DNA from: Iocasia fonsfrigidae
GTDB lineage: Bacteria; Bacillota; Halanaerobiia; Halanaerobiales; DTU029
NCBI RefSeq assembly: GCF_017751145.1
Contig: NZ_CP046640.1
Span: 3,142,137 to 3,206,136 of the forward strand
Direction of reading: 5' to 3'
Length of the DNA: 64,000 nt
Position numbers and translations under genes: made by a program. The notes beneath the pieces were generated by a model. The model worked only from the letters and a program-made list of their open reading frames with translations, had not been told where the DNA came from and did not search any database. This document shows, one piece after another, positions 33,113-38,675 of this stretch. Each line of letters begins with the position of its first letter. The stretch's first letter is position 1.

Positions 33113-33910
33113 TTATACCTTACTCAAATACCTGATAAACTTACCAATAGTTTCAACAAACTCATCTTCTCTCTCCGGGAGCAACTTCAGGTTTTCTTCA
33201 ATCTTATTGACTATAGCACTGCCGACAATAGCTCCATCAGCATAACTATGAACTTGTTTAACATGTTCAGGCTTAGAAATGCCAAAGCCAACAGCTACCG
33301 GGACATCCCTTAGTCCTTTTATCAAACTAACCTGTTCTTCAATTTCACTGGATAACTCTTCCCTGGTTCCTGTAACACCACTCCGGGAGACTGCATAGAT
33401 AAAACCACTGGCATTTTCAACAATCTCCTTAATCCTATCCTCAGTAGTATTAGGAGATACTAACATTATTATATCTAAATTATTTCTAGCCTTTCTTAGT
33501 TCATGGTCAGAACCAAGGGGGAGGTCGGGTATAATTACCCCATCTATCCCTGAATCTTCACAATCCTGAACAAATGATTTAACACCATAGCGGTAAACAC
33601 TATTATAATAGCCCATTAAAACAAGGGGAAGTTGACTTTTTTCCCTGATGTTTTTTACTAGCTTGAAAATAGACTGTAAATTAGTTTTATGGACCAGACT
33701 CCTTTGGGCAGCCTTTTGTATAGTAGGACCATCAGCCAAAGAAGAACCATATGGTATCCCCAGCTCAATTATACCAGCACCGTTTTTCTCAGCAGCCAGA
33801 ACCAGTTCCTCAGTAATCCCAAGATCAGGGTCCCCTGCCATCAAAAAAGGAATAAAGGCTTTTTCCCCATCTACTTTTATAGCTTTAAAATATGCCTCAA
33901 TTCTACTCAT
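33113..33910 (-). CDS. trpA: tryptophan synthase alpha chain
   Basis: The product has 265 residues. It cleaves indole-3-glycerol phosphate to indole and glyceraldehyde 3-phosphate. The catalytic residues Glu49 (IIELGIPYG) and Asp60 (SLADGP) fall at the classical positions. The usual PFSDP segment before LADGP is PYGSS here. Phosphate-binding regions near GFGIS and DGAIVGSAIV are present. TrpA is nearly inactive without the beta chain in well-studied species, yet trpB is not in this operon: trpF ends 26 bp upstream. The partner must be encoded elsewhere, unless indole is handled differently. Confidence 0.93.
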   Translation of the reverse strand: MSRIEAYFKAIKVDGEKAFIPFLMAGDPDLGITEELVLAAEKNGAGIIELGIPYGSSLADGPTIQKAAQRSLVHKTNLQSIFKLVKNIREKSQLPLVLMGYYNSVYRYGVKSFVQDCEDSGIDGVIIPDLPLGSDHELRKARNNLDIIMLVSPNTTEDRIKEIVENASGFIYAVSRSGVTGTREELSSEIEEQVSLIKGLRDVPVAVGFGISKPEHVKQVHSYADGAIVGSAIVNKIEENLKLLPEREDEFVETIGKFIRYLSKV

Positions 33911-33936: not shown

Positions 33937-34545
33937 TTATCTATCTTTTGCTTTTTCAATAAATCTCTTCATCTTCAACTTATCTTTAATTCCGGGGCTT
34001 TTTTCAATTCCACTACTGACATCAACTGCAAATGGCCGAGTGAGATGAATAGCCTTCTGGACATTCTCTTCATTTAAACCACCGGCAATAATAATCTTTC
34101 CGTATTCTGCCGCCTTAGCTGCCAGCTGCCAGTCAAAAGTCTTACCGGTCCCACCTGCTCTATCTGGGTGAAAGCTATCCAGGAGATACACAGCCGTCTG
34201 ATAGCAGCCAAGACCTACCAGGGATTTTTCATCTCTAACCCGGAAGGCCTTAATAACCGGCAGCCTGAATTCCTGACAGTATTCTGGTGATTCACTACCA
34301 TGAAACTGTAAATAATTAATACCAGTCTCTTTAATTATTTCCTTGACAAAATCATAGGGGTGATTTAAAAACACCCCTACTTTTCCAATACTATCAGGTA
34401 TTTCAGCTATAATCCTGGCTGCCTGCTCCACACTAACCCGGCGGGGACTGTCAGCAAAGATAAATCCCAGAAAATCGGCACCATATTTAACTGCCTGAAG
34501 GGCATCAGCAATCCTGGTAATACCGCAGACCTTTATCCTGGTCAT
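33937..34545 (-). CDS. trpF: phosphoribosylanthranilate isomerase
   Basis: The product has 202 residues, a single TIM barrel. The catalytic Cys lies in RIKVCGITRIADA and the Asp in LLDSFHPDRAGGTGKTFDW. FAVDVSSGIEKSPGIKD near the end binds phosphate. The start ATG overlaps the trpC stop (ATGA), which indicates translational coupling. It carries out the third step of the tryptophan pathway in the cytoplasm. Confidence 0.95.
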   Translation of the reverse strand: MTRIKVCGITRIADALQAVKYGADFLGFIFADSPRRVSVEQAARIIAEIPDSIGKVGVFLNHPYDFVKEIIKETGINYLQFHGSESPEYCQEFRLPVIKAFRVRDEKSLVGLGCYQTAVYLLDSFHPDRAGGTGKTFDWQLAAKAAEYGKIIIAGGLNEENVQKAIHLTRPFAVDVSSGIEKSPGIKDKLKMKRFIEKAKDR

Positions 34546-35312
34546 CCTATCAACTCTTTTACTTTATCCCCAGGACTGGTACTTGTCATTAAGGCCTCCC
34601 CGATTAAAACAGCATCAACCTTTTTCTCTAACAAATCTATATCTGTTCGGTTTTTAATACCACTTTCACTCACTACCACTCTATCCTGAGGGATATATTT
34701 AAGCAGGTCGAGTGTTGTTGCCAGTTTAACTTTAAATGTCCTGAGGTCCCGATTATTTATCCCTATAATATCTGCCCCGGCTGATAAGGCCTGTTCTAGT
34801 TCATCCCTATCATGCACCTCTACCAGGGCGTCCATCCTCAGTTCCTTAGTCAGAGCAATATACCTTTGCAATTTTTCTGCTGTTAAGACAGCAGTAATCA
34901 ATAGAACAGCATCAGCCCCGTACAATCTGGCCTGATAAATTTGATAGGAATCAATTATAAAGTCTTTTCTTAAGACCGGTAAAGAGCCAGCTGCCTTAAC
35001 CTCTTTTAAATATTCCAATCTACCCTGAAAAAATTTCTCATCTGTTAAAACCGATATTGCCCTGACCGGTGAATTATTATACTGCTGAGCAATATCTACT
35101 GGATTAAAATCCCTCCTGATTACACCTCTGGAGGGAGAGGCCTTTTTAATTTCGGCAATTATTGAAATACCCGGCCTCTTTAGAGCAGACTTGAAGGAAT
35201 AGCTTGCCATCTCTAACTCGCTGAGCTTTTCCTTTAACACCCCAGGGTCGAGCTGCTTTTTTTGTTCACAGACCTCTAAATTCTTATGTTCTATAATTTT
35301 ATCAAGTATCAT
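34542..35312 (-). CDS. trpC: indole-3-glycerol-phosphate synthase
   Basis: The product has 256 residues. IIAEIKKASPSRGVI carries the catalytic Lys, LPVLRKDFIIDSYQIYQARLYGADAVLLI is the core strand region, and GINNRDLRTFKV and VVSESGIKNRTDI complete the family pattern. The start ATG overlaps the trpD stop (TAATG), again implying coupling. It is a separate gene, not fused to trpF as in enteric bacteria. Confidence 0.96.
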   Translation of the reverse strand: MILDKIIEHKNLEVCEQKKQLDPGVLKEKLSELEMASYSFKSALKRPGISIIAEIKKASPSRGVIRRDFNPVDIAQQYNNSPVRAISVLTDEKFFQGRLEYLKEVKAAGSLPVLRKDFIIDSYQIYQARLYGADAVLLITAVLTAEKLQRYIALTKELRMDALVEVHDRDELEQALSAGADIIGINNRDLRTFKVKLATTLDLLKYIPQDRVVVSESGIKNRTDIDLLEKKVDAVLIGEALMTSTSPGDKVKELIG

Positions 35313-36337
35313 TATATAGCCACCCCTGCAAGTTGAGCTGACAGCTCCTGAAGTTGATTTAATTTCTTTAAGGCTGCCCCACTATCAATTGCCTCGGCAG
35401 CTAAATTTAATGCATCTTTAAAATTATCAACTTTTTCAGCAATAACTAAGGCAGCTGCTGAATTCAATAAAACAATATCCCTTTTTTTGTCTTGGTGGCC
35501 ATGTAGAATATCCCTGGCTATCCTGGCATTTTCATCAGGAGAACCACCAGCCAATTCCTCAATTGCAGCAGTTTCTAAGCCCAGTTCCAGTGGATCAAGA
35601 TAATATGTCTGAATCTTTCCATCAGTAAGTTGGCTGACCCTGGTTTTACCAGTAGTTGTTATTTCATCCATACCACCTATTCCATGTACAACCAGGGCCG
35701 CCTTAACCCCCAGGTTTTTCAGTACATAGGCCACAGGTTCTGTTAAATCAGGGTCATACACACCAAGCAGTTGTAGTTCTGCTCCAGCAGGGTTGGTTAA
35801 AGGCCCCAGGACATTAAAAATAGTCCTGATCCCTATCTCCCGGCGGGGTTTTACGGCATATTTCATAGCCTGATGAAAAACAGGAGCAAATAAAAATCCA
35901 ATTCCTATCTCATCGATACACCTACCTACCTGACTGGGTTCCAGGTTAATATTTACCCCGAGTTTTTCCAGGAGATCTGCACTGCCACAGGTACTGGATA
36001 CTGAACGATTCCCGTGTTTGGCAACCGACAGACCAGCCCCGGCCAGGACAAAGGCAGTTACTGTAGAAATATTAAAGGTATTTAAACTGTCACCACCTGT
36101 ACCGCAGACATCTATCAAACCCCTGCTTGCTACTGGTATTCCGGCTGCTTTTTTCCTCATAACTATAGCTGCACCGGTTATTTCTTCAATTGTCTCTCCC
36201 TTTATTCTTAAAGCAGTAATATAGGAAGCTATCTGAGCTGGTGTAGCTTTTCCTTCCATAATATCAGACATAACTGAGATACTTTCCTCTAAAGTCAGAT
36301 TATCTCCATTAATCACCTTATTAATCACTTCTCTCAA
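35312..36337 (-). CDS. trpD: anthranilate phosphoribosyltransferase
   Basis: The product has 341 residues. The PRPP-binding motif VCGTGGDSLNTFNIST and the KHGNRSVSSTCGSADLLEKLG block are diagnostic. The start is TTG at 36337, with AAGGAG about 10 nt before it. A GTG three codons on is an alternative. The region across this ribosome-binding site contains (G/U)AG triplets every 5 nt, so translation may be controlled together with the leader. Confidence 0.95.
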   Translation of the reverse strand: MREVINKVINGDNLTLEESISVMSDIMEGKATPAQIASYITALRIKGETIEEITGAAIVMRKKAAGIPVASRGLIDVCGTGGDSLNTFNISTVTAFVLAGAGLSVAKHGNRSVSSTCGSADLLEKLGVNINLEPSQVGRCIDEIGIGFLFAPVFHQAMKYAVKPRREIGIRTIFNVLGPLTNPAGAELQLLGVYDPDLTEPVAYVLKNLGVKAALVVHGIGGMDEITTTGKTRVSQLTDGKIQTYYLDPLELGLETAAIEELAGGSPDENARIARDILHGHQDKKRDIVLLNSAAALVIAEKVDNFKDALNLAAEAIDSGAALKKLNQLQELSAQLAGVAI

Positions 36338-36360
36338 CTCTTCTCATCTCCTTCTAGCTA
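36331..36360 (-). promoter_or_regulatory. candidate TRAP-type triplet run over the trpD start
   Basis: Minus-strand (G/U)AG triplets begin at 36360, 36356, 36350, 36345, 36340 and 36335 (descending). The last four are spaced exactly 5 nt. They cover the trpG stop, the trpD Shine-Dalgarno and the start codon. In Bacillus subtilis TRAP also binds such a site over trpG. A purine-rich ribosome-binding site could produce part of this pattern by chance. Confidence 0.35.
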
Positions 36361-36930
36361 ATTTACTTGCAGGAAATTCTGCATAATCTTCTCTCCTACA
36401 GAGGTCATAATCGATTCAGGGTGAAATTGCAGGCCATATAACAGGGCAGCATTATCTTCAATCCCCATAATCAAACCATCTTCTGTGCTGGCTGTAATCT
36501 CAAACCTATCAGGTAGGCTATCCTGCTTGATAATTAATGAATGATAACGTGCTGCCTCAAAATCACCAAGGTCTTTAAGAATACCTTTTCCAGTATTGAT
36601 TATTCTAGAGGTTTTACCATGACATAAGAATGGAGCCTTTTCTATTTCTGCCCCCAGAGCGGCAGCAATTGTTTGATGGCCCAAACAGATGCCGAGAATA
36701 GGTATCTTCCCTGAGAACACCTCAACCATCTTTAATGATATACCAGCTGATTCAGGTCTCCCCGGTCCAGGGGAAATAACAATCTTTTCCGGCTCTAAGG
36801 ATTCTATCTCCTCCAAACTTATTTTATCATTGCGTTTAACAAGAATATCATCCCTGAATTCCCCTATTAGTTGAACCAGATTATAGGTAAAAGAATCGTA
36901 ATTATCAATAATTAAGATAATATCCGACAC
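36358..36930 (-). CDS. trpG: anthranilate synthase component II (glutamine amidotransferase)
   Basis: The product has 190 residues. NYDSFTYNLVQLIGE opens the domain, the nucleophile Cys lies in ILGICLGHQTIAAALG, and the His-Glu pair is in GLQFHPESIMT. It supplies ammonia to TrpE and may also serve 4-aminobenzoate synthesis. The start is put at the GTG at 36930, overlapping trpE by 19 bp. The Shine-Dalgarno AAAGGGG is very close to this codon, so the start is not certain. Confidence 0.93.
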   Translation of the reverse strand: MSDIILIIDNYDSFTYNLVQLIGEFRDDILVKRNDKISLEEIESLEPEKIVISPGPGRPESAGISLKMVEVFSGKIPILGICLGHQTIAAALGAEIEKAPFLCHGKTSRIINTGKGILKDLGDFEAARYHSLIIKQDSLPDRFEITASTEDGLIMGIEDNAALLYGLQFHPESIMTSVGEKIMQNFLQVN

Positions 36931-38399
36931 CCCCTTTCTGCCAGTTCAATTGCTTTAATTAAGGCCTGGGCTTTATTAATAGTCTCCTGGTATTCTGCCT
37001 CAGGGTTAGAATCAGCTACAATACCGCCCCCAGCCTGGATAAAGGCCTTGCCACCTTTAATAACCATCGTCCTGATAGCAATACAACTGTCTAAATTACC
37101 TGAATAACCAAAATAGGCAATAGTTCCAGCATAGGGGCCACGGTTGGTCTTTTCCAGTTGATCAATTATCTCCATAGCCCTTATCTTGGGGGCACCGGAA
37201 ACTGTTCCAGCAGGAAAACAGGCCTCCAGGGCTGAGTAAATATCCTCCCCCTCTTTTAATTCACCCTGCAGGTCAGATACCATATGCATTACATGTGAAT
37301 AATACTCCACATCCATTAGTCTAGCTGCTTTCACAGAACCATAACGGCTTACTTTGCCAATATCATTCCTACCCAGGTCTACTAGCATAATATGTTCTGC
37401 CCTTTCCTTCTCATCTGCCAGAAGATCAAGGGATAACCTTTCATCTTCAGCAGAGTCACAACCCCTTTTTCTGGTACCAGCTATCGGTCTATTTTCGATC
37501 TTGTCATCCTTTACCCTGACCAGCAACTCTGGTGATGAACCTACTATCTGAAATTCAGCAAAATCAAAATAATACATATATGGGGAGGGGTTTATTCTCC
37601 TTAACTGCCGATAAATATTAAATGACGGTACCTTTACCGGAATTTCAAACCGCTGTGAGAGAACAACTTGGAAGATATCTCCTTCTTCAATATATTCCTT
37701 AGCCCTATAAACACTGTTTATATAATCATCTTTGCTGATATTTGATTTGATATTTTTCCCGATTTTTCTATTAATATCAGGTTCCTTATCTGTTTCAAAT
37801 AATCTAGTCATATTTAATTTCTTACTTATATCTTCTATCTTGTTAACAGCCTCTTGATAATCTTCTTTCCCTCTATCTACTTTAATATTACTAACTATCT
37901 TAATACTGTGATATAAATGATCAAAAACTAAAACTGTATCAGAAATCATAAACATCATCTCAGGCATTTTCTGGTCATCTATAGCCTGTTGTGGTACCTC
38001 TTCAAAATACTTAATACAGTTATAACCTAGATAACCCACTGCCCCTCCATAAAAAGGTGGCAATCCACTTGTCTCTACTACTTTATAATCTGCCAAAATC
38101 TCCTTGAGGCTGAGTAGAGGGTTATCCGTCTGATAGTTTTCAATTATATTACCCTGACCATCCCTGATAATTAACTGCTGGTCTTTACAGGAAACGAGAG
38201 CATGACAGTTTAAACCCAAAAAGGAATACCTGCCAAATTCCCCGTGTTCAACACTTTCCAATAGATAGGAAGATTCCTCCTTTAGTTTTAGATAGGCAGT
38301 TATCGGTGTTTCTGTATCAGCCACTATTTCCTTATAAAGCGGAATTAAGTTACCCTTTCCCTGTAAGTCCATAAACTCTTCAAAAGACAGATTATACAT
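36912..38399 (-). CDS. trpE: anthranilate synthase component I
   Basis: The product has 495 residues. The tryptophan feedback motif LLES followed ten residues later by Ser (SSYLLESVEHGEFGRYS) is intact, so the enzyme should be inhibited by tryptophan. The chorismate-binding domain has QVVLSQRFEIP, AGTRKRG, HIMLVDLGRNDIGKVS, FPAGTVSGAPKIRAMEII and QAGGGIVADSNPE. It is the first gene of the trp operon and lies behind a leader with candidate TRAP sites and a terminator. Confidence 0.96.
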   Translation of the reverse strand: MYNLSFEEFMDLQGKGNLIPLYKEIVADTETPITAYLKLKEESSYLLESVEHGEFGRYSFLGLNCHALVSCKDQQLIIRDGQGNIIENYQTDNPLLSLKEILADYKVVETSGLPPFYGGAVGYLGYNCIKYFEEVPQQAIDDQKMPEMMFMISDTVLVFDHLYHSIKIVSNIKVDRGKEDYQEAVNKIEDISKKLNMTRLFETDKEPDINRKIGKNIKSNISKDDYINSVYRAKEYIEEGDIFQVVLSQRFEIPVKVPSFNIYRQLRRINPSPYMYYFDFAEFQIVGSSPELLVRVKDDKIENRPIAGTRKRGCDSAEDERLSLDLLADEKERAEHIMLVDLGRNDIGKVSRYGSVKAARLMDVEYYSHVMHMVSDLQGELKEGEDIYSALEACFPAGTVSGAPKIRAMEIIDQLEKTNRGPYAGTIAYFGYSGNLDSCIAIRTMVIKGGKAFIQAGGGIVADSNPEAEYQETINKAQALIKAIELAERGCRILS

Positions 38400-38460
38400 A
38401 GGCTCACCCCTTATAATATTTGTTTGACTTATCCAGAGTCTACTATTGACAACAACAAAA

Positions 38461-38491
38461 AAGGCCCTTAGACCATGAGTCTAAAGACCTT
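38461..38491 (-). terminator. trp leader attenuator (intrinsic terminator before trpE)
   Basis: Arms 38461-38473 and 38479-38491 pair over 13 bp, including two G-U pairs in RNA, with a 5-nt loop. TTTTTTGTTGTTG follows on the minus strand. A full terminator 60 bp before the trpE start and after the promoter means attenuation. The hairpin sequence is nearly repeated at 45407-45437. Confidence 0.82.
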
Positions 38492-38538
38492 AATATCCAT
38501 AGAATAAGCATAGAAATAACTGTAAACAGGGGATACCC

Positions 38539-38622
38539 CTCTCAACTCAACTCTGCTATACTCTACTATTAAACCCTCTTCAACTCAACTCATCTAAGCT
38601 AATACTAACTCTATCTATACTA
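38539..38622 (-). promoter_or_regulatory. candidate TRAP-binding array in the trp leader
   Basis: The minus strand holds about 15 GAG or TAG triplets in 84 nt. In plus-strand terms they start at 38541, 38546, 38551, 38556, 38561, 38566, 38576, 38584, 38589, 38594, 38599, 38605, 38609 (or 38611), 38615 and 38620. Six in a row and then four more follow an exact 5-nt period, i.e. two-base spacers, as in Bacillus TRAP targets. The array sits between promoter and attenuator. The 5' triplets (38602-38622) could pair with 38491-38513 next to the terminator, a possible competing structure. No Trp-rich leader peptide and no T-box was seen. Confidence 0.65.
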
Positions 38623-38646
38623 TTATACATTTTTATATTGTATATT

Positions 38647-38675
38647 ATGATATACTTTTTTTAATCTATTGTCAA
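38647..38675 (-). promoter_or_regulatory. sigma-A promoter of the trp operon
   Basis: TTGACA (38670-38675) and TATCAT (38647-38652) with a 17-bp spacer on the minus strand. The predicted leader RNA is about 240 nt long. Confidence 0.8.

Follow-up and report, generated by a model that had tools for sequence, protein, structure and literature searches.

A probable TRAP-controlled attenuator of the trp operon in Iocasia fonsfrigidae and related leaders across the Halanaerobiales

The closest described system to the one considered here is the trp leader of Bacillus subtilis, in which a promoter, an array of 11 (G/U)AG triplets and a weak terminator precede trpE in this order, and in which antiterminator and terminator are mutually exclusive. 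In the same species TRAP also acts on the translation of trpP, and the trpG and trpP sites, where GAG/UAG triplets lie over the ribosome site and start codon, hold nine triplets. All of the experimental work on TRAP that is known to us or that we could find was carried out in Bacillus. The trp leader of Bacillus halodurans carries 19 NAG triplets and its TRAP has 12 subunits (PMC3184956). As regards the weak B. subtilis attenuator, the case has been made that TRAP acts on the polymerase (PMC3913778). In the open-access literature we found no paper describing TRAP in the Halanaerobiales, and the preliminary description of this DNA had likewise pointed to none in this order.

The locus lies on the minus strand of a 64-kb window (the whole stretch of DNA that was analysed) from the single-contig genome of I. 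fonsfrigidae, which comprises 3,926,493 bases. Very probably, this leader attenuates transcription of the trp operon under the control of TRAP; by the features that can be tested in sequence, the system belongs to the TRAP attenuator kind, its antiterminator being predicted. Shared with B. subtilis are the order of promoter, array, terminator and trpE, the RNA-contact residues of MtrB and the triplets at the trpP start; the mutually exclusive antiterminator/terminator pair predicted here would be a further common trait. In contrast to B. subtilis, the triplets are irregular and number 14-15, not 11; the terminator, weak in that species, is strong and canonical here and follows the array at about 50 nt; no protein reaches the cut-off for anti-TRAP; trpG lies within the operon; trpB is unlinked and has its own predicted TRAP-type attenuator; and there is a probable extra TRAP site at the trpD start.

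The trp leader and its candidate regulator

It had been proposed from the letters of the sequence that a promoter, triplets and an intrinsic terminator stand before trpE in this order, and this arrangement is borne out by the following features.

38647-38675, minus strand: promoter, TTGACA at 38675-38670, 17-nt spacer, TATCAT at 38652-38647 (consensus scan, 11/12)
38624-38644, minus strand: small predicted 5' hairpin, 6 bp, A-U only (fold, at all fold lengths)
38541-38622, minus strand: candidate TRAP binding array, 14 (G/U)AG triplets at a minimum spacer of 2 nt, 15 at a minimum of 1 nt
38536-38587, minus strand: predicted 5' strand of the antiterminator, with triplets 38586 to 38541 (fold)
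38546-38522, minus strand: short hairpin between array and terminator (fold)
38476-38532, minus strand: predicted 3' strand of the antiterminator, containing the terminator 5' arm 38491-38478 (fold)
38461-38491, minus strand: intrinsic terminator, 14 pairs, dG -17.6, 5' arm 38491-38478, 3' arm 38474-38461 (fold and scan)
38450-38460, minus strand: U-rich tail of the terminator, TTTTGTTGTTG (sequence)

TTGACA-type promoters occupy the equivalent location in the trpE leaders of relatives. The trp transcript presumably starts near the 5' hairpin, which could conceivably be the counterpart of the B. subtilis 5' stem-loop, a comparison that hinges on the true start site. The array consists of two dense tracts (38622-38584 and 38568-38541) with a lone triplet at 38578 between them; its KAG triplets start at 38622, 38617, 38613/38611, 38607, 38601, 38596, 38591, 38586 and 38578 in the 5' part and at 38568, 38565/38563, 38558, 38553, 38548 and 38543/38541 in the 3' part. 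The original count of about 15 triplets thus stands, but the spacing is less regular than the 5 nt that had been attributed to most of them, and the longest unbroken KAG run in a 5/6-nt register is 6. Twelve linked triplets (those with a neighbour at 5 or 6 nt) fall within 90 nt, with the runner-up site on both strands of the 64 kb reaching 5, and the density of the array has a P of 0.0002 in 5000 dinucleotide shuffles of the segment. A pattern search found five in-register triplets at only 4 loci in the 3.9-Mb genome, across which the reversed control pattern had 0 matches. The tail of the terminator at 38491-38461 reads TTTTGTTGTT, and terminator-like sites in the leader stretch number 1 against 0.0 expected. 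Downstream of the terminator, trpE starts at 38399, and no triplets are present at this start.

The operon runs on the minus strand in the order trpE, trpG, trpD, trpC, trpF, trpA and lacks trpB. Among named TrpE proteins the nearest to that of the window is from Halonatronum (62%). The genes, together with a candidate internal site discussed further below, are as follows.

36912-38399, minus strand: trpE, anthranilate synthase component I, first gene of the operon (TIGR00564, E=7.9e-176, above cut-off)
36358-36930, minus strand: trpG, anthranilate synthase amidotransferase (TIGR00566, E=2e-65, above cut-off)
36333-36360, minus strand: probable second TRAP site of the operon, spanning the ribosome site and the start codon of trpD (five triplets, 5/6 register)
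35312-36337, minus strand: trpD (TIGR01245, E=2e-131, above cut-off)
34542-35312, minus strand: trpC (NF001377, E=7e-104, above cut-off)
33937-34545, minus strand: trpF (NF002298, E=1.9e-71, above cut-off)
33113-33910, minus strand: trpA (TIGR00262, E=1.4e-82)

The genome encodes a canonical MtrB in one gene at about G000:C1:2904532-2904783 (PF02081, E=1.3e-38), and its product matches NCBIfam NF009724, 'trp RNA-binding attenuation protein MtrB', with 136.5 bits against a cut-off of 117. All six of the RNA-contact residues listed for TRAP (F32, E36, K37, D39, K56, R58) are kept in an alignment with solved TRAP chains (residue list from PMC3184956). Anti-TRAP, which had also been named as something to look for, gave no match above the PF15777 cut-off in the genome, the best sub-threshold match lying within a 390-aa frame; anti-TRAP does not, however, define a TRAP attenuator. 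In the alignment with solved TRAPs position 15 of MtrB is Leu, and the residue which we take to be position 72 in B. subtilis numbering is Ser, both of the 11-mer type. The 12-subunit TRAP is marked by Lys15 and Thr72, and the protein therefore differs here from that of B. halodurans (PMC3184956).

Conservation of the leader in the order

The preliminary description, which regarded TRAP as the best explanation, had looked to an mtrB homologue and to the leaders of relatives for a check, and the presence of mtrB and the retention of triplets before trpE throughout the order both lend it support. MtrB is encoded in 32 of the order's 38 genomes and, at the level of the phylum, in 200 of the 398 genomes that were sampled. 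TrpE was found in 26 of the 38 genomes, every one of which has mtrB, and at least 7 triplets lie before or over the trpE start in all but one of them (25/26). A single array with at least 7 triplets precedes trpE in 22 leaders, while G028 and G029 have 4+4 triplets, G005 has 8 over the trpE start, and G006 alone is weak. Position and triplets are kept across families and the linkers vary. The same leader type precedes trpE in Halonatronum saccharophilum, triplet-rich leaders are found before trpE in Thermincola, Paenibacillus and Brevibacillus, and full triplet leaders also occur before trpB and trpD in relatives.

Exactly 11 uninterrupted NAG slots in a 5/6-nt register are present in 11 leaders, some of them from close relatives and not independent cases, and in most of these one slot, the third or fourth, is CAG. 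The 11-slot leaders suggest a ring of eleven sites in this lineage, a hint at an 11-subunit ring there that comes from the RNA alone. The triplets in excess of eleven in the window had been taken to suggest either sliding registers or a different oligomer; the latter is not borne out, because eleven relatives show exactly 11 slots and the window's surplus triplets need no other oligomer. The residues at positions 15 and 72 also point away from it, and in B. halodurans, too, the triplets (19) outnumber the subunits of the classical ring (PMC3184956).

Leaders of family f3 and genus g2 consistently have CAG in the third or fourth slot, inside GAGCCCAG, a stretch that would supply bases for pairing with the terminator arms. 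Triplets over the trpE start region were seen in G005 (L103), G007 (L081) and Halonatronum (L184), and in the latter two they occur in addition to an upstream array with a terminator, a layout which makes two-level control of trpE possible in G007 and Halonatronum.

The predicted switch and its alternatives

It had been suggested that the 5' triplets pair with a segment next to the terminator and that TRAP binding would prevent this. Such a pairing is predicted (38622-38608 with 38505-38491), but it forms alongside the terminator and does not constitute the switch. In the fold, the true competitor of the terminator is the pairing of 38587-38536 with 38532-38476, which takes up the terminator 5' arm and consists of 38587-38567 with 38495-38476, continuous with 38566-38536 with 38532-38499. 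This antiterminator is the minimum-energy fold for transcripts ending at 38485-38466, and a transcript ending at 38478 has a dG of -38.0 when free and of -10.8 with the triplets blocked. Folding with and without blocked triplets, which had been named as a check, predicts a switch, the antiterminator being lost and the probability of the terminator stem rising from 0.63 to 1.0 upon blocking. On emergence of the 3' arm the antiterminator and terminator states are close in energy, which makes a kinetic outcome of the competition likely. At full length the terminator is predicted to be favoured at equilibrium even when TRAP is absent (P 0.63-0.84), so that any effect of the antiterminator must be a kinetic one. 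When the order of the triplet units of the window leader is shuffled, the antiterminator is nearly as stable (P=0.15 for energy, 0.38 for arm pairing), and since unit shuffling nearly equals it, this structure is backed mainly by the leaders as a group: across 22 related leaders the gene-proximal terminator arm shows more pairing with the array than it does in unit-shuffled controls (Wilcoxon P=1e-4, kinship ignored).

The predicted antiterminator/terminator switch would operate as follows. At high tryptophan, the MtrB ring would bind tryptophan and wrap the (G/U)AG triplets of the nascent leader RNA, and the wrapped triplets could not pair around the terminator 5' arm, such that the hairpin 38491-38461 would form and transcription would stop before trpE. 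At low tryptophan, the triplets would pair with 38532-38476 and sequester the terminator 5' arm, leading to readthrough into trpEGDCFA. We infer both the tryptophan-dependent binding of TRAP and the direction of its effect by analogy with Bacillus.

Other explanations differ in how much of this they retain. TRAP may bind the array and itself end transcription, the antiterminator pairing being incidental, which would fit with the finding that TRAP is able to terminate without the attenuator hairpin in B. subtilis (PMC3913778) and with a window antiterminator that is not significantly above unit-shuffled arrays. However, the weak, U-interrupted B. subtilis attenuator (PMC3913778) is unlike the strong, canonical terminator found here (14 pairs, -17.6, U-rich tail), which lies 50 nt past the last triplet, and the gene-proximal terminator arms of relatives pair with the array beyond shuffled expectation. 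We therefore consider direct termination by TRAP unlikely, and strong terminators such as these would provide a clean test bed for deciding if TRAP does no more than remodel the RNA or is itself the agent of termination. It is far less probable still that the leader array governs trpE translation through ribosome-site access in place of termination. Translation of trpP is under TRAP control in B. subtilis and triplets cover the trpE start in G005, G007 and Halonatronum, but the trpE start of the window is free of triplets and a strong terminator separates the gene from the array.

Two further explanations would leave TRAP out altogether, and each has next to nothing in its favour when the evidence is set side by side. 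A tryptophan-codon leader peptide or a T-box could control the terminator, with the triplets being incidental: a frame that begins with ATG, is 22 codons long and includes two Trp codons (38511-38443, minus strand) overlaps the terminator, and T-box leaders (RF00230) are common amino-acid attenuators here, with 15 in the genome. However, this frame lacks a Shine-Dalgarno sequence, contains Trp codons that are not adjacent and is not conserved; the leader of G006 is the sole other one with frames of this type, and these, too, lack a Shine-Dalgarno sequence. No Rfam family matches the window or the leaders at gathering or relaxed thresholds, and neither the trp genes nor any recognisable trpS is preceded by one of the 15 T-boxes, in agreement with the earlier statement that a tryptophan-rich leader peptide and a T-box are lacking, as no credible one was found. 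The array could also be a chance purine-rich stretch or a functionless repeat expansion, given that the segment is AG-rich and its dinucleotide-matched shuffles average 4 linked triplets. Set against this are the P of 0.0002 in the shuffles, the co-occurrence of the array with mtrB, and the conservation of position and triplets across families while the linkers change; conservation in relatives in practice refutes the chance or repeat-expansion reading.

Further candidate targets and tandem terminators

The sequence evidence points to a coherent tryptophan TRAP regulon across a separate, mostly anaerobic order, and in the window genome the unlinked trpB leader, the trpP start and the trpD start are likely further TRAP targets. 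Within the operon, TAG GAG GAG GAG GAG triplets at 36356, 36350, 36345, 36340 and 36335 cover the trpD start, which is the sole one with at least 4 in-register triplets among the window's 392 starts with a ribosome-site motif. Halonatronum, G028 and G029 share the five-triplet feature, and many other genomes have it in less regular form; it is probably an internal TRAP site of the operon, located at trpD and not at trpG, the gene that carries a site in B. subtilis. The only close homologue of trpB is unlinked to the operon (G000:C1:2882581). Its leader (G000:C1:2882159-2882445, L048:2160-2446) has 7+4=11 triplets flanking a hairpin, followed by a terminator, and an antiterminator between array and terminator is predicted (-45.2 free against -19.8 blocked). 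The array starts just after a tRNA-Gly(CCC) gene, which is preceded by a good promoter, and because there is no terminator between tRNA and array, tRNA-Gly(CCC) and the trpB leader may share a promoter and transcript.

Triplets also span the ribosome site and start codon of trpP, which encodes a transporter (PF17099, E=1.6e-45; G000:C1:1762963-1763523, L233:1500-2060). They are kept in mtrB-bearing relatives and missing in G033 and G037, which have trpP and no mtrB, and the trpP starts of these two genomes are the best negative control of the data set. The placement of GAG/UAG triplets over the ribosome site and start codon of trpP and trpD resembles the trpP and trpG sites at which TRAP controls translation in B. 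subtilis, although there are 5 to 8 triplets at the starts here compared to nine in that species.

Several other triplet-bearing sites were observed. There are two DAHP synthase genes (L228:1501-1531, L109), one with a T-box and the other with five triplets, including one mismatch, at the ribosome site (G000:C1:2016922), where their conservation in relatives is too weak for the gene to be counted as a further target. Two paralogous genes at G000:C1:1624703 and 2450793 (L046:2200-2927, L047:5602-6345) have about 6-7 (G/U)AG triplets over the ribosome site and start codon, and each is followed by a tautomerase gene. The one of the two that was scanned has no Pfam match; being a single family, they are possibly extra TRAP targets or a coincidence. 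In G010, a triplet array likewise covers the start of a nadA-like gene for quinolinate synthase (G010:C1:420908, L058). The start of a neurotransmitter-symporter-type transporter in G036 (G036:C72, L074) is triplet-rich in a genus with no detectable mtrB, and because of this example isolated triplet matches may be due to chance. Most f3 (Halanaerobium-like) genomes have two trpB genes, one near trpE and a stand-alone one closer to that of the window genome, and G001 and G031 have a stand-alone trpB with a TRAP-type leader and no trpE match.

Two terminators are present in many leaders, chiefly from family f3 and genus g2, the first soon after the array and the second 30-65 bases before trpE. 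Such tandem terminators between array and trpE are found in G002, G003, G004, G010, G011, G014, G015, G016, G017 and G019 (L082-L102); the single terminator of the window leader is located like the second one. Pairing is predicted between the array and the 5' arm of the second terminator and exceeds permuted controls in G011, G014, G015, G016, G019 and G020, and pairing of the array with the first terminator in two-terminator leaders is no better than shuffled (P=0.78). Blocking the triplets strongly raises formation of the first terminator in G003, G015, G016, G017 and G019. We tentatively offer a joint reading, plausible rather than probable, in which TRAP would be a pure RNA-structure switch acting on strong terminators in this order, with one 11-slot array antiterminating two successive terminators in many members and the CAG slot of most Halanaerobium-like leaders being the price of pairing. 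The window genome would then represent a single-terminator version with layered control, in which trpE and, separately, a trpB located after a tRNA gene are attenuated and trpD and trpP are controlled at the level of translation. As regards the location of the regulator gene in relatives, mtrB lies directly upstream of the trpE leader in G028, G029 and Halonatronum (L005, L007, L184) and directly upstream of trpB in G024 and G025 (L004, L006).
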